Assembly (NCBI RefSeq): GCF_001570985.1
Contig: NZ_BCSS01000028.1
Span: 1 to 44,093 of the forward strand
DNA from: Janibacter limosus NBRC 16128
GTDB taxonomy: Bacteria > Actinomycetota > Actinomycetes > Actinomycetales > Dermatophilaceae
Direction of reading: 5' to 3'
Length of the DNA: 44,093 nucleotides
This document shows, one piece after another, positions 370-42,324 of this stretch; position 1 is the stretch's first letter, and each line of letters opens with the position of its first letter. The translations under genes were made by a program, and so were the position numbers. Under the pieces are notes generated by a model that did not search any database, was not told where the DNA came from, and saw only the letters and a program-made list of their open reading frames with translations.

Positions 370-410
370 GCCCCCATGGGACCGCGGCGGAGGCCACCCC
401 GTCAAAGCGA

Positions 411-424
411 AGGGGGGAGCCCCC
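411..424. terminator. Weak G5/C5 hairpin after arsR
   Basis: A run of G is followed after two bases by a run of C just beyond the arsR stop. It could fold into a short stem but has no T tract. It lies next to a copy of the CGAAGGGGG word (408-417). Low confidence as a terminator. Confidence 0.25.
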
Positions 425-428
425 GCGA

Positions 429-779
429 TCAGACCGGCTCGGTGACCGCGAGCAGTGCCGAGAGCGCCCCGAGAGCCTCGGGGTTGACCCAGTAGAAGAC
501 AAAGGTCCCGCGCCGCTCACAGTCGACAAGGCCGGCCTCGCGCAGCAGCTTCAGGTGGTGCGAGATCGTCCCCGACGACAGGTCAAAGGCAGGGGTGATC
601 TCGCAGACACACAACTCGGGCTGGGCCGCGATCATCGACACCATCCGCAGCCGGACCGGGTCACCGAGCGCCTTGAAGACCGGCGCCAGACGCACAGCAT
701 CAGCCTGCGTCACCGGTGAGGTCGCCAGTCCGCAGCAGGTGACGGCCTGCTCCCGCGGCACGGACTCGAGGATGCTCAT
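429..779 (-). CDS. arsR: ArsR-family arsenite-responsive repressor
   Basis: This 116-residue winged-helix protein is expected to repress the ars genes until As(III) binds. Cysteines lie at 15-16 (TCCGLAT) and at 57 and 59 (ELCVCEIT). The adjacent pair near position 15 plus a cysteine near 55 resembles the As(III) site described for Corynebacterium glutamicum ArsR, rather than using only the Cys-x-Cys on the recognition helix. The HTH spans about 58-84 (SSGTISHHLKLLREAGLV). I chose ATG 779. The frame stays open far upstream, but that region is the antisense of arsM. A hexamer CAAGAT ends six bases before ATG 779, so the message may be leaderless. It is transcribed divergently from arsM, and the shared gap holds an imperfect dyad that would be its operator. 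Confidence 0.93.
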   Translation of the reverse strand: MSILESVPREQAVTCCGLATSPVTQADAVRLAPVFKALGDPVRLRMVSMIAAQPELCVCEITPAFDLSSGTISHHLKLLREAGLVDCERRGTFVFYWVNPEALGALSALLAVTEPV

Positions 780-785
780 CGCCCT

Positions 786-818
786 ATCTTGACACATGCC
801 AAAGTAGAAGGACATGCT
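786..818. promoter_or_regulatory. Divergent arsR/arsM promoter and ArsR operator candidate
   Basis: The segment 789-802, TTGACACATGCCAA, is an imperfect dyad (TTG.CA..TG.CAA). It overlaps a -10-like CAAGAT for arsR (minus strand, 786-791). On the plus strand it overlaps a TTGACA (789-794) that could serve as the -35 of arsM, with CATGCT (813-818) as a weak -10. Overlap of one dyad with both promoters fits joint repression by ArsR. The -10 elements are inferred by eye. Confidence 0.5.
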
Positions 819-860
819 TCGCTTGGCAGTTGATTCGACATCCATCGAAGCAGGAGCACC

Positions 861-1682
861 GTGAACACCGCAAGAGACACCCACGAGGCCGTGCGCGAGC
901 GCTACGCCGCCGCCGCCCGCGACCAGCTGGAAACCGGCGGCTCCTGCTGCGGCCCCACCGCCACCGACCCGATCACCGTGGGGCTCTACGAGGGGACGGA
1001 CTCCCCTTCGGACACCGCGCTCGCCGCCTCGCTCGGTTGCGGCAACCCGACCGCCCTGGCCGACCTCTCCCCCGGCGAGGACGTGCTCGACCTCGGGTCC
1101 GGCGGCGGCCTCGACGTCCTGCTCTCCGCGCGACGGGTCGGCCCCACCGGCACCGCCACCGGCCTCGACATGACCGACGAGATGCTCGAGCTCGCCCGGT
1201 GCAACCAGGCAGAGGCAGGCGTCACCAACGCTCGCTTCGTCCGCGGGACCATCGAGGAGATCCCCCTTGACGACGCGTCCGTCGACGTCGTCATCTCCAA
1301 CTGCGTCATCAACCTCTCGCCTGACAAGGCGTCCGTGGCCAGCGAGTGCCACCGCGTGCTGCGCGCGGACGGTCGCTTCGCCGTGTCCGACATCGTCCTG
1401 CTGCGCGAGATCCCCGACGCGCTGCGCGGGATCATCGGACTGTGGACCGGTTGCGTCTCGGGCGCCCTCCTCGACACCGACTACATCGCCACGCTGACGG
1501 AGGCTGGGTTCGCCGACGCGTCGGTCGAGGTCACCCGCACCTTCGACCGGGCAGAGCTGGAGCGCATGTCCGACATGGTCGACGGCCAGCTCCCCGAGGG
1601 ATGGTCGCTCGAGGACGTCATGGACTCGCTCCAAGGCGCCTTCGCCAGCGCCTTCATCCGCGCCCGCAAGGGTGACGCCTGA
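861..1682 (+). CDS. arsM: Arsenite S-adenosylmethionine methyltransferase ArsM
   Basis: The 273-residue protein should methylate As(III) with SAM in the cytoplasm. The SAM-binding motif DLGSGGGLD lies at 77-85. Three cysteines sit in family-typical contexts: Cys60 (SLGCGNP), Cys148 (VISNCVINL) and Cys198 (WTGCVSG), the triad that binds As(III) in ArsM proteins. An additional Cys29-Cys30 pair (GGSCCGP) lies near the N-terminus. The GTG start at 861 is set by a good AGGAG four bases upstream. The stop overlaps the acr3 ATG by one base (TGATG), so translation of arsM and acr3 is probably coupled. A methylase beside an As(III) efflux pump gives two detoxification routes in one operon. Confidence 0.94.
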   Translation: MNTARDTHEAVRERYAAAARDQLETGGSCCGPTATDPITVGLYEGTDSPSDTALAASLGCGNPTALADLSPGEDVLDLGSGGGLDVLLSARRVGPTGTATGLDMTDEMLELARCNQAEAGVTNARFVRGTIEEIPLDDASVDVVISNCVINLSPDKASVASECHRVLRADGRFAVSDIVLLREIPDALRGIIGLWTGCVSGALLDTDYIATLTEAGFADASVEVTRTFDRAELERMSDMVDGQLPEGWSLEDVMDSLQGAFASAFIRARKGDA

Positions 1683-2773
1683 TGACCACGGACACGATGA
1701 CCCCGCCGCGCCTGTCGACGCTCGACCGCTACCTGGCCGTCTGGATCGGGCTGGCCATGGTCGCCGGCCTGCTGCTCGGCCGGCTCGTCCCGGGGCTCGG
1801 CACGGCGTTGAGCGCGATCGAGATCGACGGCATCTCCCTGCCGATCGCCATCGGCCTGCTCGTCATGATGTACCCGGTGCTCGCCAAGGTCCGCTATGAC
1901 CGCCTCGACACCGTCACCAGCGACCGGCGACTGCTCGGCTCCTCGCTCGTCCTGAACTGGATCATCGGCCCGGCGCTGATGTTTGCCCTGGCTTGGCTCC
2001 TGCTGCCCGACCTGCCGGAGTACCGCACCGGCCTGATCATCGTCGGACTCGCCCGCTGCATCGCGATGGTCATCATCTGGAACGACCTGGCGTGCGGCGA
2101 CCGCGACGCCGCGGCCGTGCTCGTGGCGATCAACAGCCTCTTCCAGGTCGTCGCCTTCGCCGCTCTCGGCTGGTTCTACCTCACCGTGCTGCCGGGCTGG
2201 CTCGGCCTGGACCAGACGGACCTGGATGTGTCCGCGTGGCAGATAGCCAAGTCCGTGCTGATCTTCCTCGGCATCCCACTGCTCGCCGGCTACCTCACCC
2301 GCCGGGGCGGGGAGCGCCGTTGGGGCCGTGAGCGGTACGAAGAGTCCTTCCTGCCCAAGATCGGCCCATGGGCCCTCTACGGGCTGCTCTTCACCATCGT
2401 GCTGCTCTTCGCTCTGCAGGGTGAGCAGATCACCTCCAAGCCCGGCGACGTCGCCCGGATCGCGCTGCCGCTGCTCGCCTACTTCGCGATCATGTGGGGC
2501 ATCGGCTACGCCACCGGCCGGCTGCTCGGCATGTCCTACGAGCGCACGACGACTCTCGCCTTCACCGCCTCGGGCAACAACTTCGAGCTGGCGATCGCCG
2601 TGGCGATCGCGACCTTCGGCGCGACGAGCGGCCAGGCCCTCGCCGGCGTCGTCGGACCACTCATCGAGGTCCCCGTCCTCGTCGGCCTGGTCTACGTCAG
2701 CCTCGCGCTGCGCAAACGGTTCACACCCCCTTCGTCAGTAGTCGACGCCACACACCAAGGAGCCAGCCGATGA
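1682..2773 (+). CDS. acr3: ACR3-family arsenite efflux permease
   Basis: The 363-residue hydrophobic protein has about ten membrane segments and is expected to export arsenite driven by the proton motive force. The family hallmark GLARCIAMVIIWNDLACGD carries the essential cysteine (about 126), and SGNNFELAIAVAIATFG near residue 300 carries the conserved acidic residue of the ninth segment. Length and motifs fit bacterial ACR3. It starts inside the arsM stop and its own stop overlaps the arsC start by four bases (ATGA), so the three genes form one transcription unit. The 3' end carries a copy of the CCCCCTTCG word read as Pro-Pro-Ser. Confidence 0.95.
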   Translation: MTTDTMTPPRLSTLDRYLAVWIGLAMVAGLLLGRLVPGLGTALSAIEIDGISLPIAIGLLVMMYPVLAKVRYDRLDTVTSDRRLLGSSLVLNWIIGPALMFALAWLLLPDLPEYRTGLIIVGLARCIAMVIIWNDLACGDRDAAAVLVAINSLFQVVAFAALGWFYLTVLPGWLGLDQTDLDVSAWQIAKSVLIFLGIPLLAGYLTRRGGERRWGRERYEESFLPKIGPWALYGLLFTIVLLFALQGEQITSKPGDVARIALPLLAYFAIMWGIGYATGRLLGMSYERTTTLAFTASGNNFELAIAVAIATFGATSGQALAGVVGPLIEVPVLVGLVYVSLALRKRFTPPSSVVDATHQGASR

Positions 2774-3189
2774 GCCGACCGTCCGTCCTCTATGTCTGCG
2801 TGCACAACGCCGGCCGATCGCAGATGGCCGCCGCATACACCCGCGTGCTGTCCGAGGGCGCCGTCGAGGTGCGCTCGGCCGGCTCCGCGCCGGCCGACTC
2901 GATCAACCCGGCGGTCCACGCGGCGATGCTCGAGGACGGGATCGATCTGTCCGCCGAGTCGCCCAAGGTGCTGACGACCGAGGCCGTGCAGGCCAGCGAG
3001 GTCGTCATCACGATGGGGTGCGGCGATGCCTGCCCGATCTTCCCCGGCAAGAGGTACGAGGACTGGCAGCTCGAGGACCCCGCCGACCAAGGGGTCGAGT
3101 CCGTGCGGCCGATCCGCGACGACATCAAGCGACGTGTCGGCGAGCTGCTCGCCTCGCTCGACGTGCCCGTCCAGGACGGGCCGCGCTGA
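2770..3189 (+). CDS. arsC: Arsenate reductase, low-molecular-weight phosphatase type
   Basis: The 139-residue protein reduces arsenate to arsenite, feeding the adjacent ACR3 pump and ArsM. The P-loop CVHNAGRS at 10-17 is the CX5R nucleophile loop of low-molecular-weight tyrosine phosphatase folds. Two further cysteines, 84 and 88 (MGCGDACPIFPG), are placed like the resolving pair of thioredoxin-coupled ArsC. In actinobacteria related enzymes may instead use mycothiol/mycoredoxin, and the sequence alone does not decide the electron donor. The ATG lies in the ATGA overlap with acr3. It is the last gene of the ars operon. Confidence 0.94.
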   Translation: MSRPSVLYVCVHNAGRSQMAAAYTRVLSEGAVEVRSAGSAPADSINPAVHAAMLEDGIDLSAESPKVLTTEAVQASEVVITMGCGDACPIFPGKRYEDWQLEDPADQGVESVRPIRDDIKRRVGELLASLDVPVQDGPR

Positions 3190-8152: not shown

Positions 8153-9808
<1,656 letters not shown>

Positions 9809-9939: not shown

Positions 9940-11190
9940 GTGACCACCCCGATCCTCACCGCGGCCGCCGTCGACGCAGCAGCGGCCCTGCTCGCCGATG
10001 TCCTGCCCGCGACCCCGCTGCAGCGCAGCGAGCGCCTGTCCGCCGCGACCGGCGCCGACGTCTGGCTCAAGCGTGAGGACCTGCAGCCGGTGCGCTCCTA
10101 CAAGCTGCGCGGCGCCTTCAACTTCATCTCCAACCTGAGCGACGAGGAGCGGGCCAAGGGAGTCGTCGCCGCGTCCGCCGGCAACCACGCGCAGGGCGTC
10201 GCCTTCGCCGGTCAGCGTCTCGGCGTGCGGTCACGGATCTATCTGCCGCGCAACACCCCTCGTCAGAAGCGTGACCGTGTCGCCATCCTCGGCGGTGACC
10301 TGGTCGAGGTCATCGTCACCGGCGAGGTCTACGACGACGCTGCCAAGGCCGCAGCCGAGGACGCGGTCCGTACCGGTGCCGTCGTCGTCCCCGCCTTCGA
10401 CGCGCTCGACACCATGGCCGGGCAGGGCACCGTGGCCATCGAGATCGTGCAGCAGCTGGGCAGGATCCCCGATCTCGTCACCGTCCCCGTCGGTGGCGGC
10501 GGGCTCCTCGGCGGGATGGCCACCTGGATGGCTGCCCACACCGCCTCGACCCGCCTGGTCGGCGTCGAGCCGGAGGGTGCTGCCTCGATGGCCGCCGCCC
10601 TGGCCGCCGGTGCCCCCGTGGACCTGGACGAGGTCTCCCCCTTCGTCGATGGCGCCGCGGTCCGGCGGGCCGGCACCCTCACCCACGCAGCGGTCGCCGC
10701 CACCGGCACCCACCTGACCTCCGTGTCCGAGGGCGCGCTGTGCGTCGAGATGCTCGCGATGTACCAGACCGACGGGATCATCGCCGAGCCCGCGGGAGCC
10801 TTGGCGACCACGGTGCTGGCCGACCTGCGGATCGAGCCCGGGTCCACCGTCGTCGCGGTCGTCTCCGGGGGCAACAACGATGTCTCACGATACGCGGAGA
10901 TCGTCGAGCGGGCGCTGGTGCACGAGGGGCGCAAGCACTACTTCACCGTCGACTTCCCCCAGGAGCCGGGTGCCCTGCGTCGATTCCTCGACGAGGTGCT
11001 CGGCCCGGACGACGACATCACCTTCTTCGACTACATCAAGCGCAACAACCGCGACACCGGCACGGCCATCGTGGGCCTCGAGCTCGGCGACCCGGACGAG
11101 CTGGGCCCACTCCTGGCCCGCATGGACGCCTCCCCCCTGCGCATCGAGCGGATCCCGACGGACAGCCCGCTCTTCCGCCTCATCGGCTGA
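9940..11190 (+). CDS. ilvA: Threonine ammonia-lyase (threonine dehydratase)
   Basis: The 416-residue PLP enzyme converts threonine to 2-oxobutanoate, the first step to isoleucine. The PLP lysine is Lys55 in SYKLRGAFNF. SAGNHAQGVAFA and VPVGGGGLLGG follow as the substrate and phosphate loops. The last ~85 residues (KHYFTVDFPQEPGALRRFL...) form one ACT-like regulatory domain, as in the short biosynthetic form found in Bacillus and Corynebacterium, so feedback control by isoleucine is likely. GTG 9940 was chosen because TACCGT lies six bases upstream. An in-frame ATG at 9835 would put the N-terminus inside the palindrome. Confidence 0.94.
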   Translation: MTTPILTAAAVDAAAALLADVLPATPLQRSERLSAATGADVWLKREDLQPVRSYKLRGAFNFISNLSDEERAKGVVAASAGNHAQGVAFAGQRLGVRSRIYLPRNTPRQKRDRVAILGGDLVEVIVTGEVYDDAAKAAAEDAVRTGAVVVPAFDALDTMAGQGTVAIEIVQQLGRIPDLVTVPVGGGGLLGGMATWMAAHTASTRLVGVEPEGAASMAAALAAGAPVDLDEVSPFVDGAAVRRAGTLTHAAVAATGTHLTSVSEGALCVEMLAMYQTDGIIAEPAGALATTVLADLRIEPGSTVVAVVSGGNNDVSRYAEIVERALVHEGRKHYFTVDFPQEPGALRRFLDEVLGPDDDITFFDYIKRNNRDTGTAIVGLELGDPDELGPLLARMDASPLRIERIPTDSPLFRLIG

Positions 11191-11534: not shown

Positions 11535-11593
11535 CGCGCAACGCGCCCCCTTCGCCTCCACAGACCCCTCCGAGCCCGCGAGATGATGCATCC

Positions 11594-16073: not shown

Positions 16074-16742
16074 TCAGCGCTCGACGATCCCGGCCTCGTG
16101 GGCGATGATCACGGCGCCCACCCGATCGCGCACCTGCAGCTTGGCGAAGATGCTCGACACGTGCGTCTTGACCGTCGCGGCACCGATGACGAGGTCGGCG
16201 GCGATCTCGGAGTTGGACCGGCCGGCACCCATGAGCCGCAGGACGTCCAGCTCGCGGTCGGTGAGGTGGGCGAGCAGGTCGGCGTGCCTCCCTTCGCCCC
16301 CTGTGGAGGGGGCACGCGGGGCGCTCATCTGGGCGATGACCCGCTGGGTGACCTCCGGGGCGAGCAGCGCGTGGCCGTGGCCGACGGCCCGCAGTGCGTC
16401 GACGAGCTGGTCGGCCTCCGCATTCTTGAGCAGGAAGCCGCTCGCGCCGGCCTGCAGCGCGTCGAAGAGGTAGTTGTCCGCGTCGAAGGTCGTCAGGATG
16501 ATGACTCGACCGAGGTCGCGCTCGACGATCTCGCGAGTTGCGGCGATGCCGTCCATGACGGGCATCTGCACGTCCATGACGATGACATCGGGGCGCTCTT
16601 GCTCGGCCAGGTCGATCGCCTCGCGTCCGTTGGCCGCCTCCCCGACGACCACGAGGTCCTCCTCGACGGAGAGCATCATCGCGAAGCCGGACCGGATGAT
16701 CGGCTGGTCGTCGACGAGCAGCACCCGCAGCGTGTCCGTCAT
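16074..16742 (-). CDS. NarL/LuxR-type response regulator
   Basis: The 222-residue regulator has a receiver domain with the acidic pair Asp11-Asp12, phospho-acceptor Asp57 (VIVMDVQMP), a Thr near 84 (ILTTFDADN) and Lys near 105 (FLLKNA). The C-terminal LuxR HTH is about 160-215 (LTDRELDVLRLMGAGRSNSEIA...). The start overlaps the kinase stop by four bases, so they are a cognate pair. The likely target is the ABC exporter just downstream, as with many DesK-type pairs, but no binding site was identified. ATG 16742 is clear. Confidence 0.93.
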   Translation of the reverse strand: MTDTLRVLLVDDQPIIRSGFAMMLSVEEDLVVVGEAANGREAIDLAEQERPDVIVMDVQMPVMDGIAATREIVERDLGRVIILTTFDADNYLFDALQAGASGFLLKNAEADQLVDALRAVGHGHALLAPEVTQRVIAQMSAPRAPSTGGEGRHADLLAHLTDRELDVLRLMGAGRSNSEIAADLVIGAATVKTHVSSIFAKLQVRDRVGAVIIAHEAGIVER

Positions 16743-18061
16743 GACTCCTCCGTCCGAAGGGGGATGCGCGCCCGAACCCGATAGCCACCCAGGGGGCGGG
16801 GCCCGATCTCGATGCTCCCGTGGTGCGAGGAGACCCGCTCGCGGATCCCCAGCTGGCCCATGCCGGTGCCCGAGGTCCCCGGCCGCGGACGGCCGTCGTC
16901 GGTGACCTCGATCTCCGCGTGCTCGTCACCGACGCGGACGATCACGCGGGCGCGCTGCGCGGTCGAGTGCCGCACGACATTGGTCAGCGCCTCCTGCGCG
17001 GTGCGATAGAGGGAGTGACCGATCGCGGTGGGGACCGCGTCGAGGGCACCGGGTGAGTCCTCCACCACCTCGTGGGTGACGGTCAGGGCCGTGCCGTCGC
17101 GCGCGGCCGCGAGGTCGGCGACATCCGCCAGGGTCGGCTCGGGCGCGTGGCCCACCGTGGCCCGGCCGGTCTCGTCGGAGGGTGCTTCGCCCATCCGCAG
17201 CGTGCCGAGCAGCCCGCGCATCTGCGTGACGGCATCCCGGCTGCCACCCTCGATCCGCAGCAGCGCCCCCTTCGCCGCCTCCGGGTCCTTGTCGAGCACA
17301 CGACGGGCCGCGGCCGCCTGCACCCCGATACCGGAGACGTGGTGGGCGACGACATCGTGCAACTCGCGCGCGATCCGCAGCCGCTCCTCGACGACCGCAG
17401 CCTCACGCAGCTGACCGGTCTGCTCACGGATGGTCTCGGTCTGGGTCTGCAGGCCCATCCGCTGACGAGCCGAGCGCCAGGCCACCTGGCCACCGAGCAC
17501 GGCGCCACCGAAGTAGAGGATGTTGATGATGCTGAGCATCATGGGCGCCGCGATCGTCGGCGCGATCCACGCGTCCGGGTCAGCCTCCCTCACCATGCCC
17601 GCGGTCGCCTGCCCCACGGCGAAGCCCCAGACGAGCCAGAGGAACATCAGGAAGAGGATGACCCCGTAGACGGCGGCCATCGTGCGCCGGTTGCGGGCCC
17701 ACGCGACACCGCCGAGGACGACGAGGAAGTAGGACACCTGCGTCGACAGCAGGCTGGCCATGAGCGGCTCGTACGAGGAGATCGCCCAGTACGCGAGGCT
17801 CGCCGCGGCGACGGTGAGCAGGGGGTACCGGCGCCGGGTGAGGAGGAAGAGGGCAGGGATCGCGGTGAGCAGCCACTGCTGCCACACCGGCTGATCGACC
17901 TCGGTGAGGCTGCCGAGCGCGCGCATGAGCTCGAGGACGAAGAGGGAGAGCGCGACGACCGTCAGGGTGAAGAGCGCGTCGCCGCGGCTGATCGTGCCGC
18001 CGGGTCGCTCCCAGTCGTCGTCGAGGGCGAAGAACCCACCGACGCTGTCGGACCAGGCCAT
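16739..18061 (-). CDS. DesK-type sensor histidine kinase
   Basis: The 440-residue kinase begins with about five membrane segments (roughly residues 30-200) with only short loops, so it probably senses a membrane or lipid state. A coiled linker (QTQTETIREQTGQLREAAVVEERLR, residues written in two parts) leads to the HisKA_3 H-box RIARELHDVVAHH with His235. The HATPase domain shows ALTNVVRHS and GMGQLGIRERV. ATG 18061 is 11 bases downstream of the VOC stop. An in-frame GTG at 18091 would overlap the VOC gene; neither start has a clear Shine-Dalgarno sequence. It is coupled to the response regulator by a four-base overlap. Confidence 0.9.
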   Translation of the reverse strand: MAWSDSVGGFFALDDDWERPGGTISRGDALFTLTVVALSLFVLELMRALGSLTEVDQPVWQQWLLTAIPALFLLTRRRYPLLTVAAASLAYWAISSYEPLMASLLSTQVSYFLVVLGGVAWARNRRTMAAVYGVILFLMFLWLVWGFAVGQATAGMVREADPDAWIAPTIAAPMMLSIINILYFGGAVLGGQVAWRSARQRMGLQTQTETIREQTGQLREAAVVEERLRIARELHDVVAHHVSGIGVQAAAARRVLDKDPEAAKGALLRIEGGSRDAVTQMRGLLGTLRMGEAPSDETGRATVGHAPEPTLADVADLAAARDGTALTVTHEVVEDSPGALDAVPTAIGHSLYRTAQEALTNVVRHSTAQRARVIVRVGDEHAEIEVTDDGRPRPGTSGTGMGQLGIRERVSSHHGSIEIGPRPLGGYRVRARIPLRTEES

Positions 18062-18071: not shown

Positions 18072-18713
18072 TCAGAGGGTGACCGGGCCACCCGGGGTGT
18101 TGAAGGTGACCGACATCAGACCGGGCGTGCCGTGCGGGGCGACGAACTCGAAGTCGATGACCGAGGAGGTCTCCTCGGGCGGCAGGCCACCGAGCCAGTC
18201 GGTGACGCGCGCCTGGTCGCCGGCGATCATCAGGGAGGAGATGGTGACCGCGGTGGCCGCCTCCTCGCTGGGGTGCGGCGAGCCCTCGCCCCACTTGACG
18301 AAGAAGGGCAGCTGCGGATCGGCGAGCGTGCCCTTGATGCCGATCTGCTTCCACAGGAACTCACGGCCGTCGGACAGGCGACGGTTGCCCGCGACGGCCT
18401 TGCGGTCCAGGCGCTCCTCGACCTCTTCGATCTCGGCGTCGACGCGGATGACCCAGCCCATCCAGCCGCCACCGGCCTCGGAGCGGGCGCGCACGACCTG
18501 ACCGAAGGGGGCCTTGTCGGAGCTCGGGTGGTCGAGGACCTCGACGACCTCGACATAACGCTCGTGGGCGAGCGGCAGGATCATGTTGCGCGTGCCGAAA
18601 CGCGGGTGGATCCCCCCATCGACAGCGGTCACGCCAAGTGCCTCGCCCAGACGTTGGGCTGTGGCCTTGACACCGGACTGGTCTGCAGCATAGGAGACGT
18701 GGTCGACGCGCAT
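18072..18713 (-). CDS. VOC / glyoxalase-like domain protein
   Basis: The 213-residue protein starts MRVDHVSYAADQ, the usual opening strand and metal-type His of a vicinal-oxygen-chelate fold. HPRFGTRNMILPLAHERYVEVVEVLD follows (given in full only here as the fold core, split after ILPLA), with Glu in the YVEVVEV strand as second ligand candidate. It resembles glyoxalase-like proteins of actinobacteria with unknown substrates. It lies 11 bases upstream of the sensor kinase on the same strand, so the three genes are probably cotranscribed. CACGAT ends six bases before the ATG. Confidence 0.78.
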   Translation of the reverse strand: MRVDHVSYAADQSGVKATAQRLGEALGVTAVDGGIHPRFGTRNMILPLAHERYVEVVEVLDHPSSDKAPFGQVVRARSEAGGGWMGWVIRVDAEIEEVEERLDRKAVAGNRRLSDGREFLWKQIGIKGTLADPQLPFFVKWGEGSPHPSEEAATAVTISSLMIAGDQARVTDWLGGLPPEETSSVIDFEFVAPHGTPGLMSVTFNTPGGPVTL

Positions 18714-22105: not shown

Positions 22106-22152
22106 GCTCCCCCCTTCGCCCCGGCAAGCGCTTTGATGACGAAGGGGGGCGC
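22106..22152. terminator. Hairpin built from two inverted CCCCCCTTCG copies, after the DUF1206 gene
   Basis: CCCCCCTTCG (22109-22118) and CGAAGGGGGG (22140-22149) form a perfect 10-bp stem with a 21-base loop, directly after the DUF1206 stop. It probably ends that minus-strand transcript and is formed from two opposed copies of the over-represented word. Confidence 0.7.
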
Positions 22153-24814: not shown

Positions 24815-25369
24815 TCAGGCGAGGCCGAGCTCCTCGAGCCCGAAGACGTGACGGTACTCGAACCCGGCCTCGGCGAACGTGTCCGCGGCACCGGTCGCCC
24901 GGTCGGCGATCGTCGCGACGGCGACGACCTCGGCTCCCGCCTCACGCGCGGCATTGGCCGCCTCGAGGGGCGAGTTGCCGGTGGTGGAGGTGTCCTCGAC
25001 GATCAGGACACGACGGCCCGTGATGGACGGGCCCTCGATGCGCTGCTGCAGGCCGTGCGCCTTGCCGGACTTGCGCACCACGAAGGCGTCCAGCCGCTCC
25101 CCCTTCGCCGCCGTGGCGTGGAGCATGGAGGTGGCGACCGGGTCGGCGCCCAGGGTCAGCCCGCCGACGGCGTCGAAGTCGAGGTCCGCGACGAGGTCGA
25201 GCATGACCCGACCGACGAGCGGTGAGGCCTCCCCGTCGAGGGTGATGCGGCGCAGGTCGACGTAGTAGTCGGCCTCGGCACCGGAGGAGAGGGTCACCCG
25301 TCCGTGGACGATGGCCTTGTCCTTGACGATCTCGAGCAGGCGGGCGCGGTCGGCGGCGATGTCAGTCAC
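24815..25369 (-). CDS. pyrE: Orotate phosphoribosyltransferase
   Basis: The 184-residue enzyme makes orotidine 5'-monophosphate from orotate and PRPP in pyrimidine synthesis. The PRPP-binding motif VLIVEDTSTTGNS spans 121-133. SSGAEADYYVDLRRI (29-42) is the orotate-site region, and VVRKSGKAHGLQQ the flexible loop. I chose GTG 25369 because TAGAAT ends seven bases upstream. The in-frame ATG at 25378 overlaps that -10 and would not be on the same message. No other pyrimidine genes are in the window. Confidence 0.93.
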   Translation of the reverse strand: MTDIAADRARLLEIVKDKAIVHGRVTLSSGAEADYYVDLRRITLDGEASPLVGRVMLDLVADLDFDAVGGLTLGADPVATSMLHATAAKGERLDAFVVRKSGKAHGLQQRIEGPSITGRRVLIVEDTSTTGNSPLEAANAAREAGAEVVAVATIADRATGAADTFAEAGFEYRHVFGLEELGLA

Positions 25370-26314: not shown

Positions 26315-27063
26315 GCGCCGAGGGTGCGGGCGAAGAGCGCTTCGAGCTCGACGAAGTGCCGCTCTGCGCCGGCTTCCTGATAGCTCGACGTGTCGCTCAT
26401 CGTGTAGCCGTGCGGCGCGTCCGGGTAGATCGCGGCCTGTGCCTCGAGCCCGTGCTTGGCGAGGGCGCTGTCGAGGAGCGCGACGGCCTCCGGCGGCATC
26501 GTGCGGTCCTGGTCGGCGTGGCCGTAGACGAAGGCCGCCCGCGCGCTGCCCAGCGAGAGGTGCGCGCTGTCGGGCCCGTCCGTGGCGATCTGTGCGCCGT
26601 GGAACCCTCCGCAGGCGGCGATGCTCGGGTCGACGCACGCGGCGAGGGTCGCGTGCTTGGCCCCCATGCAGTAGCCGGTGGTCCCGATCGGTCCGTCGGC
26701 GACACCGGGCAGTGCACGCAACGCAGCGACGAAGGGGGCGACGTCCGCCTCGGTCCGCTCCCGGGTCAGCGTGCCGACGCGCGGGATGCTCTGCTGCCCG
26801 TAGGCGGCCCGCTGCTCCGGATCGGTGAGGTCCATGCCCGCCGGCGGGGACATCTCGGCGGCCGTGCCGAGGCGGTAGAAGGTGTTGGGTGCCAGGACGA
26901 TGTAGCCCCACGAGGCGATGCGGTCGGCCATCTCCTCGATGCGCGGGCGCAGACCGATGGCGTCCATCCACAGCAGGACTCCGGGGTGGGTGCCGTCGTC
27001 GGGCCTGGCGACGATCGCCTCGGCTGGTCCGTCTGCGGCGGTGATGTCGATGAGGGGTCGCAT
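26311..27063 (-). CDS. Dienelactone hydrolase family protein
   Basis: The 250-residue alpha/beta hydrolase carries the dienelactone hydrolase triad Cys132 (GYCMGAK), Asp184 (GHADQDRTMP) and His218 (APHGYT). Its nucleophile is cysteine rather than serine. Family members cleave dienelactone in chlorocatechol breakdown, but many actinobacterial paralogs have other esters as substrate and no aromatic pathway genes are adjacent. ATG 27063 has TAGCGT eight bases upstream. It heads a two-gene operon with the SDR and is divergent from xth with a 47-base gap. Confidence 0.9.
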   Translation of the reverse strand: MRPLIDITAADGPAEAIVARPDDGTHPGVLLWMDAIGLRPRIEEMADRIASWGYIVLAPNTFYRLGTAAEMSPPAGMDLTDPEQRAAYGQQSIPRVGTLTRERTEADVAPFVAALRALPGVADGPIGTTGYCMGAKHATLAACVDPSIAACGGFHGAQIATDGPDSAHLSLGSARAAFVYGHADQDRTMPPEAVALLDSALAKHGLEAQAAIYPDAPHGYTMSDTSSYQEAGAERHFVELEALFARTLGA

Positions 27064-28816: not shown

Positions 28817-30499
28817 GCCCTCCCGGCGACGGACGCCGAGGAAGGCGAAGGCGACGAGAGCGCCCAGGAGCGCGGCACCGGCGGCACCGACGAAGACGGT
28901 GTGCACCTGCAGCAACGCGGCGTCGAGCAGGGCCTGACCGCTGGTCTGCTGCTCGCGCGGCAGCGCCTCGACGGCCTGGTAGTAGCGGTGCAGACCCACG
29001 CCGGTGAGCAGCGCGAGGCCGACGACCATGCCGACCATCCGCGCGACGACGACGAGGCTCGATGCCGTCCCGTGCGCGTGCTGCGGGGAGTCGGCGAGTG
29101 CGGCATCGTTGACCGGTGCGAGAGCCATGCCCAGACCGAAGCCGACGACCGCGAGCGTGATCGTCGAGGTCACCTCGGCGAGCGAGCCGCGGTCCCAGCC
29201 GGACATGACGACGAGCCCGCCGGTCGCCAGGAGCAGGCCCACCCCGGCCGCCAGTCCGTCGCCCACCCAGCGCAGGACCCAGCCGCCGACGAGGGCGCCG
29301 ACGGGCACGGCGACCAGGAACTTCACCAGCTCCATCGCCGCATCCGTCTGCGACCCGGACGTGGTCAGTCGAGAAAACAGGGGCACGTCGACGACGACCG
29401 AGACGAGGGCGACGCCCACGAGCAGCGAAACGACCAACGCCCAGCCGGTCCGACCGCGGACGGTGCCCCGCGGCACGAGCGGCGATGCAGCCGTGTGGTG
29501 CCGCCAGGCATAGGCCAGCGCCGCGACGACTGCGACCGGCAGCAGGGCGTAGCCGAGCGGGCCGACGACCTCGGACTCCGGGTCGGCCGAGCTGAAGGTG
29601 AGCACGATGCACCCCAGTGCCGTGCCGAGCAGCAGAGCGCCGGGCAGGTCGCTCTCGCGCAGCGGCGGCCACCAGCGGCGGATCGTCAGCACGACGAGCA
29701 GCGCGGCGAGAGCGAGGGTCACCAGCCCGATCGGCGTGAGCAGCCGGCTGTCCCCGGCGAAGGGGACGAAGGGCAGCCCGAGGTAGACATCCGTCGCGAG
29801 CGAAGGGGGCGCCGCCAGCGCCAGCCAGAGCAGGCCGACGGTGAGCACCCCGAGCGCGGTGGTGACCACACGAGGACGGGGGCGGCCCTCCCCCCGGTCC
29901 CTGAGGAGGCCGCCCGCGGCCGTCTCGAAGGGGGCTCCGCGGGTGACGAGGGCGATCGCGAGGAAGAGCAGGATGCCGAGGACGACATTGAGCCAGAAGA
30001 TCGCCCGCCAGTCGGCGACGACGAGCACAGCCGCGCCCAGCAGCGGACCGAGGACGGAGCCCAGCTCCTGGACGGCGCCCACGATGCCGAGAGGCATCCC
30101 GCGCCGCCCCGGCGGCCACAGGTCAGCAACGAGCGCGAGGGTCGCGGGGACCAGCCCGCCGCCACCGATGCCCTGGACGACGCGGCCCGCGACGAGGATG
30201 TCGAGGTCGACGGCCAGCGCGGTGATGCCGGAGCCGACGACGAAGACGACGAGGCACCCCAGCAGGATCCGCGAGCGCGAGATGACATCCGCCAGGCGAC
30301 CGATGAGCGGCAGGACCGCGATGTAGCCGAGGAGGAACCCCGAGATGATCGGGGCCGCGCGTTGGAGGTTGTCCAGGCCGAGTCCGACGCCGCTCATCAT
30401 GTCCGTGAGTGCGAGGACCACGACATAGGTGTCGGCCGCGGCGAGCGCGACCGCCGTCGAGGCGAGCGCGAGCAGGGTCCGGGGGTTGGTCCCGGTCAT
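28778..30499 (-). CDS. MFS transporter, P55-like, partner of the LprG-type lipoprotein
   Basis: The 573-residue protein has about 14 membrane segments, with the MFS motif A-like GRLADVISRSRIL after segment two and the drug-exporter stretch IGGGGLVPATLALV. It lies 13 bases downstream of an LppX/LprAFG lipoprotein gene. That is the order of the lprG-p55 operon of mycobacteria, where both are needed to export triacylglycerols and tolerate drugs. GGAAGG four bases before ATG 30499 sets the start. I infer lipid or drug export; a generic multidrug exporter is the alternative. Confidence 0.88.
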   Translation of the reverse strand: MTGTNPRTLLALASTAVALAAADTYVVVLALTDMMSGVGLGLDNLQRAAPIISGFLLGYIAVLPLIGRLADVISRSRILLGCLVVFVVGSGITALAVDLDILVAGRVVQGIGGGGLVPATLALVADLWPPGRRGMPLGIVGAVQELGSVLGPLLGAAVLVVADWRAIFWLNVVLGILLFLAIALVTRGAPFETAAGGLLRDRGEGRPRPRVVTTALGVLTVGLLWLALAAPPSLATDVYLGLPFVPFAGDSRLLTPIGLVTLALAALLVVLTIRRWWPPLRESDLPGALLLGTALGCIVLTFSSADPESEVVGPLGYALLPVAVVAALAYAWRHHTAASPLVPRGTVRGRTGWALVVSLLVGVALVSVVVDVPLFSRLTTSGSQTDAAMELVKFLVAVPVGALVGGWVLRWVGDGLAAGVGLLLATGGLVVMSGWDRGSLAEVTSTITLAVVGFGLGMALAPVNDAALADSPQHAHGTASSLVVVARMVGMVVGLALLTGVGLHRYYQAVEALPREQQTSGQALLDAALLQVHTVFVGAAGAALLGALVAFAFLGVRRREGSGSLARGFGVEE

Positions 30500-32447: not shown

Positions 32448-33623
32448 ATGCACCTTCGCCTCTCCCCGCAAGACGCCGCATTCCAGCAGCGGATGCGTGC
32501 CTACTTCACCACCGAGTTCCCGCGAGAGCTGCGTCATGCGGCCGCCGCCGGGCAGCAGCTCACCCCGGAGGACATCCGCCGAAGCCAGTCGGTGCTCAAC
32601 GATGCGGGGCTGGCGGTCCCGGCCTGGCCGACGTCGTGGGGCGGGCAGGACTGGAGCCCCCTTCGGATGCACATCTGGAACAGCGAGATGCGAGCGGCGG
32701 GCGTCCTGCCGCCGCTGCCCTTCAACACCTCGATGGTCGGGCCGGTGATCGCCGCCTTCGGCTCCGAGGAGCTCAAGGCCAGGTTCCTGCCCCAGACCGC
32801 CAGCCTCGAGATCTGGTGGTGCCAAGGGTTCTCGGAGCCGGACGCCGGCTCCGACCTGGCCTCGCTGCGCACCACGGCGGTGCGCGACGGTGACCACTAC
32901 GTCGTCAACGGGCAAAAGATCTGGACGACCCTCGCCCAGCACGCCGACTGGATGTTCGCTCTCGTGCGCACCGACCCCGCCGCCCCCAGGAAGCAGGCAG
33001 GCATCTCCTTCCTCCTGCTCGACATGCGCAGCGAGGGCGTCACGACCCGCCCGATCCGCACCCTCGACGGTGATGTCGAGGTCAACGAGGTCTTCTTCGA
33101 CGACGTGCGCGTGCCGGCGGACCAGCTGGTGGGCGAGGAGAACAAGGGCTGGGACTACGCCAAGTTCTTGCTCGGCAACGAGCGCGTCGGCGTCGCCGAC
33201 ACCGGCCTGATCAAGCTCTGGCTCACCGACCTCAAGGACCACGCCCGCCAGGTCCGAAGGGGGGATGGCACCCTGCTGGACGACCCCGCCGTCGCGGTCC
33301 GCTTCGCCGAGCTCGAGGCCGAGCTCATGGCGATCGAGCTGACGGCCGTGCGGGTCTCCGGCAGCTCCAGCGACGGCCGTCCGGACCCGGCCTCGTCCAT
33401 CCTCAAGCTGTGCGGGTCCCAGCTGCAGCAGGACGTCCTCGAGCTGGCGATCGACGTCGCCGGCCCGATGGCACTGTCCTGGGAGCACCTCGAGGCGGTG
33501 CCGGGCTGGGCGAGCTCGAGCGTGCCGACCTACCTCAACTACCGCAAGGCCACGATCTACGGCGGATCCAGCGAGGTCCAGCGCAGCATCGTCGCGACGT
33601 CCATCCTCGGACTGAAGGGCTGA
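32448..33623 (+). CDS. Acyl-CoA dehydrogenase, catalytic-type subunit
   Basis: The 391-residue protein follows the acyl-CoA dehydrogenase fold: helical N-domain, FAD/substrate strand WWCQGFSEPDAGSDLASLRT, GQKIWTT, and the C-terminal KATIYGGSSEVQR. The usual catalytic Glu of short/medium-chain enzymes (YEGTSE) is Gly here. Instead Glu245 in LLGNERVGVA occupies the helix-G position used by isovaleryl- and long-chain enzymes. It lacks the FAD-contacting 'R.QFG.P...FQ' segment, which the next gene has. Together they look like the alpha2-beta2 FadE pairs of steroid side-chain breakdown. Confidence 0.9.
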   Translation: MHLRLSPQDAAFQQRMRAYFTTEFPRELRHAAAAGQQLTPEDIRRSQSVLNDAGLAVPAWPTSWGGQDWSPLRMHIWNSEMRAAGVLPPLPFNTSMVGPVIAAFGSEELKARFLPQTASLEIWWCQGFSEPDAGSDLASLRTTAVRDGDHYVVNGQKIWTTLAQHADWMFALVRTDPAAPRKQAGISFLLLDMRSEGVTTRPIRTLDGDVEVNEVFFDDVRVPADQLVGEENKGWDYAKFLLGNERVGVADTGLIKLWLTDLKDHARQVRRGDGTLLDDPAVAVRFAELEAELMAIELTAVRVSGSSSDGRPDPASSILKLCGSQLQQDVLELAIDVAGPMALSWEHLEAVPGWASSSVPTYLNYRKATIYGGSSEVQRSIVATSILGLKG

Positions 33624-35245: not shown

Positions 35246-37813
35246 TCAACGAACGGCGAGGCCGCCCCCTTCGACATCGACGTCCACGACGACCGTCGTA
35301 CCGTCCCGCACGTCGCCGGACAGCAGGCCTGTGGCCAGCCGGTCACCGATCTCCTTCTGCACCAGGCGGCGCAGCGGTCGGGCACCGTAGGCCGGGTCGT
35401 AGCCGGTGTCGGCCAGCCACTGTCGAGCGGCCGGCGTGACCTCGAGGTCGATCCGGCGGTCGGCCAGTCGGCTACCGAGCTCGCGCACCTGCAGCTCGAC
35501 GATGTGGCCGAGCTCGTCACGGCTGAGCGCGTCGAAGATGACGATCTCGTCCAACCGGTTGAGGAACTCCGGCTTGAAGGCCTGGCGCACGACCCCCATG
35601 ACCGACTCGCGGCGAGCCTCCGCCTCGATCAGCGGGTCCGTGAGGAACTGGCTGCCGAGGTTGGAGGTCATCACGAGGATGACATTGCGGAAGTCGACCG
35701 TGCGGCCCTGACCGTCGGTCAGGCGACCATCGTCGAGGACCTGCAGCAGGATGTCGAAGGTCTCCGGGTGTGCCTTCTCCACCTCGTCGAGCAGGACGAC
35801 CGAGTACGGCCGACGGCGCACGGCCTCGGTGAGCTGACCGCCCTCCTCGTAACCGACATAGCCCGGAGGCGCACCGATGAGGCGCGCGACCGCGTGCCGC
35901 TCGGCGTACTCCGACATGTCGATGCGCACCATCGCCTTCTCGTCGTCGAAGAGGAAGTCGGCCAGGGACTTGGCCAGCTCCGTCTTGCCGACACCGGTGG
36001 GCCCGAGGAAGAGGAAGGAGCCCGTCGGCCGGTTGGGGTCGGCGATGCCGGCCCGCGAGCGGCGCACCGCGTCGGAGACCGCACGCACGGCGTCGGTCTG
36101 ACCGATGAGACGCGAGCCGATGATCGACTCCATGCTCAGCAGCTTTTCGGACTCGCCCTGCAGCAGACGCCCGGCGGGGATGCCGGTCCACGCCGAGATG
36201 ACCTCGGCGATGTCGTCGGCACCGACGCGCTCCTTGACCATCAGGTCGGTGTCGTCGCGGGCCGCCTCGGCCTCGCTGGCCTGCGCCAGCTGACCCTCAA
36301 GCGTCGGGATCTCGCCGTAGAGCAGGCGCGAGGCGCCCTCGTAGTCACCGTCGCGCTGCAGTCGATCGGCCTGCGTGCGCAGGTCGTCCAGCCGAGCCTT
36401 GAGGTCACCGACCGCGTTGAGGCCCGTCTTCTCCGACTCCCAGCGGGCGGTGAGGCCGGCCAGCTCCTCGGACTTGTCCGCGAGGTCCTTGCGCAGCCGC
36501 TCCAGCCGGTCCCTGGAGGCGTCGTCGGTCTCCCGAGCCAGGTGCAGCTCCTCCATCTTGAGCCGGTCGACGGCGCGCTGCAGCTCGTCGATCTCGACGG
36601 GGCTGGAGTCGATCTCCATCCGCAGACGCGACGCGGCCTCGTCGACCAGGTCGATCGCCTTGTCGGGCAGCTGACGCCCGGTGATGTAGCGGTCCGACAG
36701 GGACGCGGCAGCCACGAGCGCGGAGTCCTCGATGGCCACCTTGTGGTGGGCCTCGTAGCGCTCCTTGAGCCCGCGCAGGATCGCGATCGAGTCCTCGACG
36801 CTCGGCTCACCGACGAAGACTTGCTGGAAACGACGCTCCAGCGCCGGGTCCTTCTCGATGTGCTCGCGGAACTCGTCGAGCGTCGTCGCGCCGACCAGCC
36901 GCAGCTCACCGCGGGCGAGCATCGGCTTGAGCATGTTGCCGGCGTCCATCGCGCCCTCACCGGAGGCACCCGCACCCACGACGGTGTGGAGCTCGTCGAT
37001 GAAGGTGACGACCTCCCCTTCGCTGGACTTGATCTCCTCGAGGACCGCCTTGAGACGCTCCTCGAACTCGCCGCGGTACTTGGCCCCGGCGACCATCGCC
37101 CCGAGGTCGAGGCTCACGAGGCGCTTGCCGCGCAGTGACTCCGGCACGTCGCCGGAGACGATCCGCTGGGCCAGGCCCTCGACGACGGCGGTCTTGCCGA
37201 CGCCGGGCTCGCCGATGAGGACGGGGTTGTTCTTGGTCCGGCGCGAGAGCACCTGGACGACTCGACGGATCTCGGCATCGCGGCCGATGACCGGGTCGAG
37301 CTTGCCGTCGCGGGCCATCGCGGTGAGGTCGGTGCCGTACTGCTCCAGGGCCTCGCCCCCCTCGGCCGGGGTCTCCGAGGTGACCTTGCGGCCGGCCCGC
37401 AGCTCCTCGACCTTGGTCTCCATGTCAGTGGCTCCGCGCTTCTCGACGGCGGCGAGGTGGCCGGTCTCGGCGAGGGCCAGCAGGAGCAGGTCGAGGGCGA
37501 GGAAGTCGTCCCCCTTGGACCGCATGAGCGTGTCCGCCTGCTGGAGGACGGCGAGCAGCTCACGGCCGAGCGTTGGGGGCTGCGCCGCACCGCTCGTGGT
37601 GGGCTGGGACGCGACCTGCGCGTCCGCCTGGGCGAGGACGTGCGGCGCCCCCGTCCCGGCGGCCTGCAGCAGCGTGTCGCACTGCGGGGTGTCGAGCTGC
37701 ACGAGGGCGCTCACGAGGTGCGCCGGAGTGACCTCGGGGTGGCCCTGGGTCTGGGCGGAACGCTGGGCCAGGGCAAGCGCCTCGGCCACCTTGGTGGTGG
37801 GCTTGAAGTCCAT
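35246..37813 (-). CDS. clpB: ATP-dependent disaggregase ClpB
   Basis: The 855-residue AAA+ chaperone resolves aggregated proteins with DnaK. Its N-domain covers about 1-145. AAA-1 has Walker A GEPGVGKT near 201 and Walker B FIDELHT near 270. The coiled-coil middle domain is about 400-520 ([17 protein letters not shown]). AAA-2 has GPTGVGKTE near 603, the pore loop GYVGYEEGG and [11 protein letters not shown]. Full length for the family. AAGGAG lies four bases before ATG 37813. The upstream region has a HAIR dyad, so HspR should repress it in the absence of heat stress. Confidence 0.97.
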
Positions 37814-40342: not shown

Positions 40343-40379
40343 CGCGACGCGCTTCCTCCCGCGCGGCGGCGTCACCCGG

Positions 40380-40385
40380 CATGAT
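40380..40385 (+). promoter_or_regulatory. Leaderless-type -10 CATGAT for the desulfurase-like gene
   Basis: CATGAT ends six bases before ATG 40392. Confidence 0.45.
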
Positions 40386-40391
40386 CGACAC

Positions 40392-41597
40392 ATGCCACTC
40401 GACGTCGCCGCGCTCCGCTCCCGCTTTCCCTCGCTGACCTCCGGGATCGCCCACTTCGACGGGCCGGGCGGGACACAGACACCGGCCGAGGTCGGCCAGG
40501 CGATCGCCGCCACGCTCACCGGGCCCCTGTCCAACCGCGGCTCCTCGGTCGCGAGTGACCGCAACGCCGAGAGCGCAGTCGCCGGGTTTCGCTCGGCGAT
40601 CGCCGACCTGCTCGGCGCGCAGCCGAGCGGGATCGTCTACGGCCGCAGCGCCACCCAGCTCACCTACGACATCTCCCGGACGCTGGCGAAGGGGTGGGGG
40701 CCGGGTGACGAGATCGTCCTCACCGAGCTCGACCACGACTGCAATGTCCGGCCGTGGGTGCAGGCGGCGCAGGCCGTCGGTGCGACCGTCCGGTGGCTGC
40801 GGCTCGACCCCGCCAGCGCCGACCTCGACCTGAGCGACCTCGACGAGGTCGTCGGCGAACGTACCCGCCTGGTCGCCGTGACCGGCGCGTCCAACCTGCT
40901 GGGGACGATGCCGCCCGTCGCCCGGATCGCCGCACGGGCCCACGCCGTCGGCGCGCTGGTCCACGTCGACGGGGTTCACCTCACGGCCCACTCGCACATC
41001 GACATCGCCGCGATGGGCGCCGACCTCTTCGTGTGCTCGCCGTACAAGTTCTTCGGTCCGCACTGTGCGGCCCTGGCCGCTGACCCCGCGCTGCTGGAGA
41101 CACTGCACCCGGACAAGCTGCTGCCGTCGACCGATGACGTCCCGGAACGCTTCGAGCTCGGGACGCTGCCCTACGAGATCATGGCCGGCGCGACGGCCGC
41201 GGTCGACGTCATCGCGTCACTGGCCCCGGGCGAGGGCACCCGCCGGGAACGACTCGCTCTGGCGCACGCCCTCGTCCACGAGCACGAGCTCGCCCTGCGC
41301 CAGCGGATCGAAGGGGGCCTGGCCGACCTCGGCGAGCGGGTCACCCTGTACTCACGGGCGCAGCAGCGCACGCCGACCCTCTTCTTCACCTTCGCCGACC
41401 GGGACGCGCGCGAGGCCGCGGCCTACCTCGCCGAGCGCGATGTCCTCGCGCCGGCCGGCACCTTTTATGCGCACGAGCCCTTCCGCGCCCTGGCACCCGG
41501 GGTCGACCTCGGGATGCGGGTCGGCGCGGCGCCCTACACCGACGACTCGGACGTCGACCGCCTGCTGACGGGACTCACGGACTTCGTCGCTCGCTGA
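40392..41597 (+). CDS. Cysteine desulfurase-like PLP enzyme (TIGR01976-type)
   Basis: The 401-residue class V aminotransferase-fold protein has the PLP Lys219 (CSPYKFFGPH), Asp193/His196 (HVDGVHLTAH) and His115 (ELDHDCN) above the ring. The N-terminus AHFDGPGGTQTP is typical of the cysteine desulfurase-like TIGR01976 group rather than SufS/IscS. I see no active-site Cys loop equivalent to SufS Cys364 (the C-terminal third has no cysteine), so desulfurase activity is doubtful. No iron-sulfur assembly genes are adjacent. Confidence 0.88.
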   Translation: MPLDVAALRSRFPSLTSGIAHFDGPGGTQTPAEVGQAIAATLTGPLSNRGSSVASDRNAESAVAGFRSAIADLLGAQPSGIVYGRSATQLTYDISRTLAKGWGPGDEIVLTELDHDCNVRPWVQAAQAVGATVRWLRLDPASADLDLSDLDEVVGERTRLVAVTGASNLLGTMPPVARIAARAHAVGALVHVDGVHLTAHSHIDIAAMGADLFVCSPYKFFGPHCAALAADPALLETLHPDKLLPSTDDVPERFELGTLPYEIMAGATAAVDVIASLAPGEGTRRERLALAHALVHEHELALRQRIEGGLADLGERVTLYSRAQQRTPTLFFTFADRDAREAAAYLAERDVLAPAGTFYAHEPFRALAPGVDLGMRVGAAPYTDDSDVDRLLTGLTDFVAR

Positions 41598-41617
41598 CCC
41601 GTCGAGCCCAGCTGACG

Positions 41618-42184
41618 TCAGCGGGGGTCGCGGCCGGTGAGCGCCAGCACCTGGTCCTGACGTGAGGCGTCGGGGCCCAACTCGACCGCTGGGCCGCAGA
41701 CGCCGTCGCTGCGGATGGCGTCACCGAAGCCGGCGATGGCGGTCTCGGCCTGATCGAGCTCACGCTCGGAGAAGTCCACGTCGACACCGGCGGCCTGACC
41801 GATGTCCCAGCGGTGCACGATCAGGTCGAAGCCGAAGAACTGGTCGAAGGCTCCACCCACCGTGCTCGTGCCGAAGGGGGTCTCGTAGGCCCGCTCCGCC
41901 AGGGTGTCGTCGGCCAGCTGGCGAGCGACGCCCTCGGCGTGCGTGCGCCATGCGGTCGCGGGACCCAGCGCGGCAACCGTCGGCGCGGGATCGGGCAGGT
42001 CCGCGCCGGCCTTGAGGAGGAAGTCACGCTGGGTGTCGATGAGGTGCTGGACGACATCGAGCCCCGACCAGCCCTCGCACGGGCTCTCGCCCTCGAGCGC
42101 GCGAGGGTCGGTCGCGTCGATCAGGCGCATGAGCGGAGTGTTCTTGCGGTCGAAGACGGAGGCGGCATCGCGAGGAAGGGGCAT
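41618..42184 (-). CDS. TIGR03086-family DinB-like (mycothiol-dependent type) protein
   Basis: The 188-residue protein has the DinB four-helix pattern used by mycothiol-dependent maleylpyruvate isomerase: CEGWSGLDVVQHLIDTQRDFLL with a metal-type His, FDQFFGFDLIVHRWDIGQAAG with a second His, and HAEGVARQL. It is an actinobacterial family of mostly unknown reactions, probably thiol transfer. ATG 42184 is chosen because CAGGCT lies six bases upstream; the frame continues upstream without signals. It converges with the desulfurase-like gene across 20 bases. Confidence 0.85.
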   Translation of the reverse strand: MPLPRDAASVFDRKNTPLMRLIDATDPRALEGESPCEGWSGLDVVQHLIDTQRDFLLKAGADLPDPAPTVAALGPATAWRTHAEGVARQLADDTLAERAYETPFGTSTVGGAFDQFFGFDLIVHRWDIGQAAGVDVDFSERELDQAETAIAGFGDAIRSDGVCGPAVELGPDASRQDQVLALTGRDPR

Positions 42185-42324
42185 GGGGACAGCCTGCCAG
42201 CGCCCTGCGACAACCGCCACGACATTCCCCCTTCGTCCAGCGGGTGAACTCCCGACGGCGACTGGGCGAAGGGAGCGCACCACCCCTTGATCCGGCCCCC
42301 GCAGCCAGCGAGCATGACGACGAC
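42185..42324. other. Divergent gap with an inverted pair of the CCCCCTTCG word
   Basis: The 140-base gap holds CCCCCTTCG (42227-42235) and CGAAGGG (42267-42273) in inverted orientation, plus CATGAC (42313-42318) six bases before the esterase ATG. No coding frame is convincing. Confidence 0.5.

Follow-up and report, generated by a model that had tools for sequence, protein, structure and literature searches.

Short words that mark DNA for uptake are known from only two proteobacterial families, as far as the available part of one study goes (PMC12616744). The DNA uptake sequence (DUS) of the Neisseriaceae, GCCGTCTGAA with its dialects, is described in the accessible text of its source as short, non-palindromic, present in the thousand-copy range, occurring in part as inverted repeats and varying in dialects that follow phylogeny (PMC3630211). 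The uptake signal sequence (USS) of the Pasteurellaceae, AAGTGCGGT with its Apl form, is a 9-mer with two subtypes and approximately 1300 copies in H. influenzae, according to the available portions of three reports (PMC12616744, PMC13020248, PMC5217627). The same portions place uptake sequences in terminators (PMC13020248) and describe opposed pairs of them in H. influenzae (PMC5217627). The DUS receptor of Neisseria is ComP, and PpdA/ComN is the predicted receptor of the Pasteurellaceae. For mycobacteria no uptake word is reported in the available part of one source (PMC10526031), and no report of such a word in Actinomycetota was found among the matches listed in the literature searched, whose coverage is incomplete. 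The present analysis concerns a 44,093-nucleotide stretch of Janibacter limosus NBRC 16128 (contig NZ_BCSS01000028.1, positions 1 to 44,093; hereafter the window) and a nonamer that recurs in it as CGAAGGGGG on the plus strand and CCCCCTTCG on the minus strand. This non-palindromic word resembles both the DUS and the USS in the sequence features listed above. Its abundance, strand balance, indifference to reading frame, presence in terminator-like hairpins and lineage dialects match those of known uptake sequences, and it is therefore proposed as a candidate DNA-uptake word of Janibacter, DUS- or USS-like and spread by natural transformation, a reading that we consider probable by analogy.

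Within the window, CGAAGGGGG/CCCCCTTCG tops all 9-mers by count. A first-pass annotation had claimed about 22 copies of the nonamer, about 30 of its 8-base form and about 41 of its 7-base form, against roughly 1, 4 and 10 expected from base composition. Recounting gave 22 copies of the nonamer (12 as CGAAGGGGG and 10 as CCCCCTTCG), 31 of CGAAGGGG and 42 of CGAAGGG, with recomputed expectations of 1.3, 3.7 and 10.6, and every listed position of the 22 proved correct with the exception of 22109, which is really 22110. The genome as a whole (3,378,259 bases in 101 contigs) contains 1311 copies, 654 on one strand and 657 on the other, compared to 26 of a backward control consisting of the same letters reversed. 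In a 443-kb sample comprising stretches of contigs C1–C3 plus the window, the word is the most over-represented 9-mer, with 150 copies found against 10.0 expected under an order-3 Markov model, and the enrichment first noticed in the window thus withstood this check. Of its 27 single-mismatch forms, CGAAGGGAG (69 versus 10.2, 6.8-fold) and CGAAGGGGA (39 versus 7.3, 5.4-fold) are also enriched, the next reaching 2.9-fold. The flanks are biased as well, with G-R favoured before the core and G avoided after it.

A larger sample of 843 kb holds 308 copies, of which 231 lie wholly in genes, 76 are intergenic and 1 falls on an edge; the gene calls, made with our own script, miss some genes, and all intergenic shares are approximate and upper-leaning. 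Synonymous codon shuffling within genes (20 shuffles) left 45.6 ± 6.7 copies with a maximum of 59 in place of the 231 observed, and codon and amino-acid use therefore explains approximately a fifth of the in-gene copies, in agreement with the initial claim that codon preference is no explanation for the word. Likewise, in a closed Janibacter genome (G009, 400 kb sampled) 152 in-gene copies were found compared to 26.2 ± 3.7 after shuffling. The copies occupy both strands and every reading frame, with TPFA/APFA, AKGV, GEGG/DEGG and PPS as common readings; those first given for the window are correct in kind, rechecking having yielded AKGV, APFA, PPS, SPLR, RRG and IEGG.

The density of CGAAGGGGG in intergenic DNA is about four times that in genes: the 8.1% of the sample that is intergenic holds 76 of the 308 copies, and the corresponding 11.6% of G009 holds 88 of 240. 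For the 7-base form in the window, the first-pass annotation had placed about a quarter of copies in the 6% of DNA between genes; the share is upheld (10 of 42, 24%), but intergenic DNA amounts to 9.7% of the window, itself a somewhat high estimate because the gene caller misses genes such as an ArsR-like frame from 429 on. Copies per base peak between convergent genes, and among intergenic copies with an upstream stop codon, 46 of 56 lie within 60 bases of it (50 of 65 in G009). Plus-minus pairs less than 60 bases apart number 9 in the sample from J. limosus and 17 in G009, where chance would give approximately 1.7 and 2.1 (one quarter of the value expected for pairs of any orientation). Of the other close pairs, 3 and 4 are minus-plus, and 2 and 1 have both words on one strand. 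From fold and position, inverted pairs are predicted to lie in terminator-like hairpins. The window pair at 22110/22140, which belongs to the rarer minus-plus kind, folds into the hairpin first suspected there (−34.3 kcal/mol, z −3.6), and two plus-minus pairs of G009 gave z values of −6.9 and −9.3. A second inverted pair reported at 42227/42267 is present, although it consists of one full 9-mer and one 7-base copy.

Along the chromosome the copies are evenly spread, with variance-to-mean ratios of 0.99 and 0.80 in 4-kb windows. In G009, whose contig starts at dnaA, 20 stretches totalling 400 kb carry 133 copies on the leading and 107 on the lagging strand. An apparent alternation of strand between neighbours at least 400 bases apart (83 opposite and 44 same in C1–C3 plus the window) was discarded, as it was not replicated in ten more contigs (64 and 61) nor clearly in G009 (89 and 76).

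The word is confined to a narrow lineage. It is enriched in all 16 Janibacter genomes (797–1860 copies) and in all three genomes of a neighbouring genus, g64 (1317–1939 copies), which is probably Marihabitans and whose genome G120 is probably Marihabitans asiaticum; de novo word counting in a sample of G120 recovers the Janibacter word. None of the other 167 of the 186 family genomes (53 genera) is enriched, each having at most 80 copies; these counts omit G028 (347 bases) and G115 (5,271 bases). In a class-wide sample of 148 genomes, which shares three genomes with the family set besides J. limosus itself, only the J. limosus genome stands out, the next highest count being 204 in an 8.6-Mb genome with 118 copies of the backward control. 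The word also varies in dialect, in that some congeners have many copies of CGAAGGGAG and CGAAGGGGA and others few, and CGAAGGGGT is the variant found in g64. Such 3' variants in Janibacter and g64 correspond to the dialect trait of uptake sequences.

Conservation of individual sites was assessed by aligning the window to its counterparts in 10 congeners, with 6.5 to 34.7 kb aligned. The word was kept in 43 of 101 site-by-species comparisons, compared to 313 of 1366 for control words composed of identical letters. Of the 22 window sites, two had no aligned counterpart and another two had counterparts in one or two relatives; for the 18 sites with at least three aligned species, mean conservation was 0.49 versus 0.24 for 215 control places (one-sided p = 0.0004).

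Word counting in samples from sister genera revealed a different word, GTATGCCG, in G018, G019, G022 and G026, and GAATGCCG in G027. Nothing comparable appeared in samples of G016, G017, G023, G024, G025 (at most 6 copies of ATGTACAT), G029 and G030, and those of G065, G139, G138, G114, G058, G059, G117 and G101 gave weaker words only, with z up to approximately 10; genome counts of GTATGCCG are nonetheless raised in G138 and G030. By a hand count, 28 of the 53 genera include a genome in which GTATGCCG reaches at least 1000 copies and five times its backward control. This word is at background in Janibacter and g64 (at most 41 copies), and therefore no genome is enriched for both words. GTATGCCG is unrelated to CGAAGGGGG and not a variant of it. 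In genes it exceeds synonymous shuffles (30 each) at 57 versus 7.0, 34 versus 4.3, 40 versus 2.8 and 14 versus 1.9, and its strands are balanced in the sampled stretches (40/32, 21/17, 29/29 and 6/11). A polarity suggested by plus-strand runs for the words of other genera was an artefact of forward matches being listed first, as the balanced stretch counts of GTATGCCG indicate. Within genera its abundance is uneven, ranging from hundreds or thousands of copies to background (G114 versus G115, G065 versus G064, and G139 versus most of its genus). A 20-kb stretch of G018 (C1:1500001-1520000, 63% GC) that bears a Mutator-family transposase, an IS110-family transposase and an Rhs/pretoxin-HINT protein contains no copy, compared to 72 in the remaining 100 kb sampled from G018, which is suggestive, from this one stretch, of depletion in foreign DNA. 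Neither a 49-kb Tetrasphaera phage (2 copies of GTATGCCG, 2 of the backward form) nor a search for clpB on plasmids (71 records matched, with no Janibacter among the matches listed) is usable as evidence. Beyond the family, 10 further families of the order were sampled at one genome (40 kb) each, and one of these genomes, G044, has GGCCGATGCG, at 23 versus 0.9 expected; the word totals 1005 copies in the G044 genome and ranges from 16 to 1203 across species of its genus.

Some further words were noted in these samples. The G018 word is looser, GTATGNCG, in that A, G or T at position 6 each gives a form enriched approximately 5–8 fold, and words like CGTGNCACTC are over-represented there too. 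In G037, ACGACGCCG is over-represented (23 versus 2.3 in 40 kb) and could be codon-driven. A repeated palindrome-like TCTGCTAGCA(GA) occurs in G022 (L142–L143), its core being counted 8 times in 40 kb, and contig C6 of J. limosus (L114–L115) has palindromes of the TTCACGTGAA type, counted 6 times in 40 kb, which we take to resemble parS and which would put C6 near the origin.

Genes for natural competence are present in the genus. In the J. limosus genome comEA and comEC are adjacent open frames, and all 16 Janibacter genomes have ComEC, ComEA and DprA (15 of the last above the curated cut-off). ComEC identity is 77–94% in six Janibacter records and 57% in Marihabitans. Three secretion-ATPase loci, taken to be of Tad type, exceed the Pfam cut-off in J. 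limosus; the two on contig C3 adjoin small genes that appear Flp-like and TadE-like and the one on C22 adjoins apparent TadB/C genes, these labels being presumptive and guided by gene order. Transformation of Micrococcus luteus requires two tad clusters, and tad together with ComEA/ComEC is frequent in Actinobacteria, as stated in the available part of one report (PMC4322843).

On the proposed reading, competence would involve a DNA receptor at the cell surface with a preference for CGAAGGGGG; the recognized signal would be longer than the nonamer, approximately G-R-CGAAGGGGG, and in some species could have A at one or other of its last two positions. Fragments bearing the word would enter more often and recombine into the chromosome. 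In this way transformation-driven molecular drive would spread the word to tolerant positions irrespective of strand and frame, perhaps with a contribution from selection favouring the uptake of kin DNA, and copies past stop codons, often in inverted pairs, may have been reused as terminator-like hairpins. We infer that CGAAGGGGG has a role in uptake, that its receptor is carried by a Tad/Flp pilus or a minor pilin, and that drive maintains its copies. Differences from the described systems are nonetheless clear, as neither the DUS nor the USS is related to CGAAGGGGG in sequence, Janibacter belongs to a different phylum and has one membrane, and the Neisseria DUS has a known receptor, ComP, where that of Janibacter is putative.

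The first-pass annotation had named three options for the word, of which uptake draws support from the number of copies, their balance between strands and occurrence in all frames, the hairpins of inverted pairs, the conservation of sites and the lineage words. Nothing was found that favours a nucleoid protein or a methylase, no search aimed at a methylase having been made. A binding site for a lineage-peculiar chromosome-organising or nucleoid protein, selected at more than 1000 sites, would be compatible with the even chromosomal spread, strand balance, site conservation and lineage specificity. However, known systems of this type have between some tens and a few hundred sites, neither an excess of plus-minus hairpin pairs nor a position close to stop codons would be expected, and the differing words of sister genera would require turnover of a core chromosomal protein; an explanation along these lines appears unlikely. 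We give a still lower chance to a Chi-like signal recognized by RecBCD or AdnAB in recombination. Several Chi sites are G-rich and Chi is over-represented; CGAAGGGGG is also G-rich and slightly favours the leading strand (55%) and whichever strand is locally richer in G (136 of 240 copies in G009, 57%), the latter being a point against an uptake word as well. These excesses are small (z approximately 1.7 and 2.1), and the enrichment, 15-fold over Markov and 50-fold over the backward word, is larger than is usual for Chi, inverted hairpin pairs have no known Chi function, and the word differs among genera of one family. Equal strand use had initially been held against both Chi and KOPS. KOPS/AIMS are abundant G-rich words of similar length but polar along replichores, and CGAAGGGGG, without strong origin-terminus polarity in the sampled stretches of G009, is far from KOPS-like; the argument from equal strand use is nevertheless incomplete because a replichore-polar motif also balances genome-wide.

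A methylation-linked or HIP1-like repeat, made abundant by a DNA methyltransferase or by biased repair, is improbable. HIP1 of cyanobacteria is lineage-specific and very abundant, as is CGAAGGGGG, but it is palindromic whereas CGAAGGGGG differs from its own reverse complement, and contiguous non-palindromic 9-mers are unusual methylase sites. Hairpin pairs, nearness to stop codons and the peak between convergent genes would fit a merely favoured terminator stem, yet the 231 of 308 copies that lie in genes, in all frames and at five times the shuffle count, contradict it, and copies are mostly single, with 14 close pairs of any orientation among the 308, making this a very improbable account of the word. 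The 46 copies retained by shuffled genes, about a fifth of the in-gene count, are what a codon or composition artefact can offer, and it is refuted to near certainty by codon shuffle, Markov and backward-control values that are 5 to 50 times too low and by the 167 family relatives without enrichment.

Several observations nevertheless weigh against the reading of CGAAGGGGG as an uptake word. The 9.3-kb locus of Candidatus Janibacter merdipullorum lacks the word. Conservation shows no excess in four of the 10 congeners (G010 1/3, G007 0/3, G014 0/6 and G001 1/11), and lost sites are one step from the word in 19 of 58 cases versus 381 of 1053 for controls, again no excess. As a gauge of depletion in foreign DNA, which was not demonstrated for Janibacter, the most atypical tenth of codon neighbourhoods has 0.21 copies per kb of gene versus 0.30 overall, on only 15 copies; G009 shows no trend of density with codon atypicality, and the one long gap between copies that was examined has core genes inside. 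Pasteurellaceae USS lean to gene ends according to the available part of their description (PMC2346458), but CGAAGGGGG copies do not, with 44, 52, 48, 40 and 47 in-gene copies per quintile and 40, 30, 24, 34 and 24 in G009. GTATGCCG is less like an uptake word, its intergenic enrichment being weak (21, 11, 31 and 18% of copies in 16, 9, 19 and 11% of DNA) and two of its eight close pairs being plus-minus. CGAAGGGGG and GTATGCCG have no common core, unlike the Neisseriaceae dialects, which share CTG in the accessible text of their description (PMC3630211). ComEC was found in all 39 relatives searched and ComEA in 179 of the 186 family genomes, with or without a word. Since both genes are as common in relatives that lack any word, the presence of competence genes was ruled out as predicting it. 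The search for a receptor extended to locating the tad loci and gave no candidate, and no data on transformation or uptake in Janibacter were found among the literature matches listed.

The copies in the window are listed in the table below. Beside the first of them, an arsenic-type cluster at 429-3189 consists of an ArsR-like frame, a methyltransferase, an SBF-family transporter and an arsenate-reductase-like gene, assigned in part by Pfam matches; names beyond these matches, such as ArsM-like and ACR3-like, are presumptive.

Table. Copies of the candidate uptake word in the window; positions refer to the window, and genes are given by their coordinates.
Position	Strand	Location	Reading or remark
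408..416	+	Intergenic	Just beyond stop of a minus-strand frame, presumably ArsR-like, missed by gene caller
2726..2734	-	SBF-family transporter gene 1682-2773	PPS
8568..8576	+	Phosphoglucomutase gene 8153-9808	AKGV
8745..8753	-	Phosphoglucomutase gene 8153-9808	APFA
10637..10645	-	Gene 9940-11190	Kept in 6 of 7 aligned relatives
11546..11554	-	Intergenic	About 12 bases past stop codon
16041..16049	+	Intergenic	Flanked by two minus-strand genes
16755..16763	+	Histidine kinase gene 16739-18061	IPLR
17266..17274	-	Histidine kinase gene 16739-18061	AKGA
18503..18511	+	Gene 18072-18713	Kept in 6 of 7 aligned relatives
22110..22148		Directly past stop of gene 22154-22963	Inverted pair, hairpin (22110-22118 -, 22140-22148 +)
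25099..25107	-	Gene 24815-25378	AKGE
26730..26738	+	Gene 26311-27063	APFV
29801..29809	+	MFS transporter gene 28778-30499	PPS
29926..29934	+	MFS transporter gene 28778-30499	APFE
32657..32665	-	Gene 32448-33623	SPLR
33255..33263	+	Gene 32448-33623	RRG
35265..35273	-	3' end of clpB 35246-37813	VEGG
41309..41317	+	Gene 40392-41597	IEGG
41872..41880	+	Gene 41618-42184	TPFG
42227..42273		Intergenic	Copy at 42227-42235 (-) with inverted 7-base CGAAGGG at 42267-42273

Taken together with the words of other genera, CGAAGGGGG raises the prospect that sequence-selective uptake evolved independently and is widespread in Actinomycetota. At least three unrelated words, namely CGAAGGGGG in Janibacter and its neighbour, GTATGCCG and its variants in 28 of 53 genera, and GGCCGATGCG in another family, may mark self DNA via Tad/Flp-pilus competence and form barriers to gene exchange between genera, a proposal we advance tentatively and would rate at slightly under an even chance. 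If confirmed, this would be the same kind of system as DUS and USS in a new phylum and with unrelated words; if true, it would represent a third such origin, independent of the other two, in a high-GC phylum with a single membrane, and would open the questions of why such words evolve, whether they keep species apart and what a pilus receptor needs for reading DNA. The contrasts in GTATGCCG within genera provide natural comparisons for finding a receptor or a loss of competence, and the word placed on a construct may offer a practical handle for transforming these bacteria.

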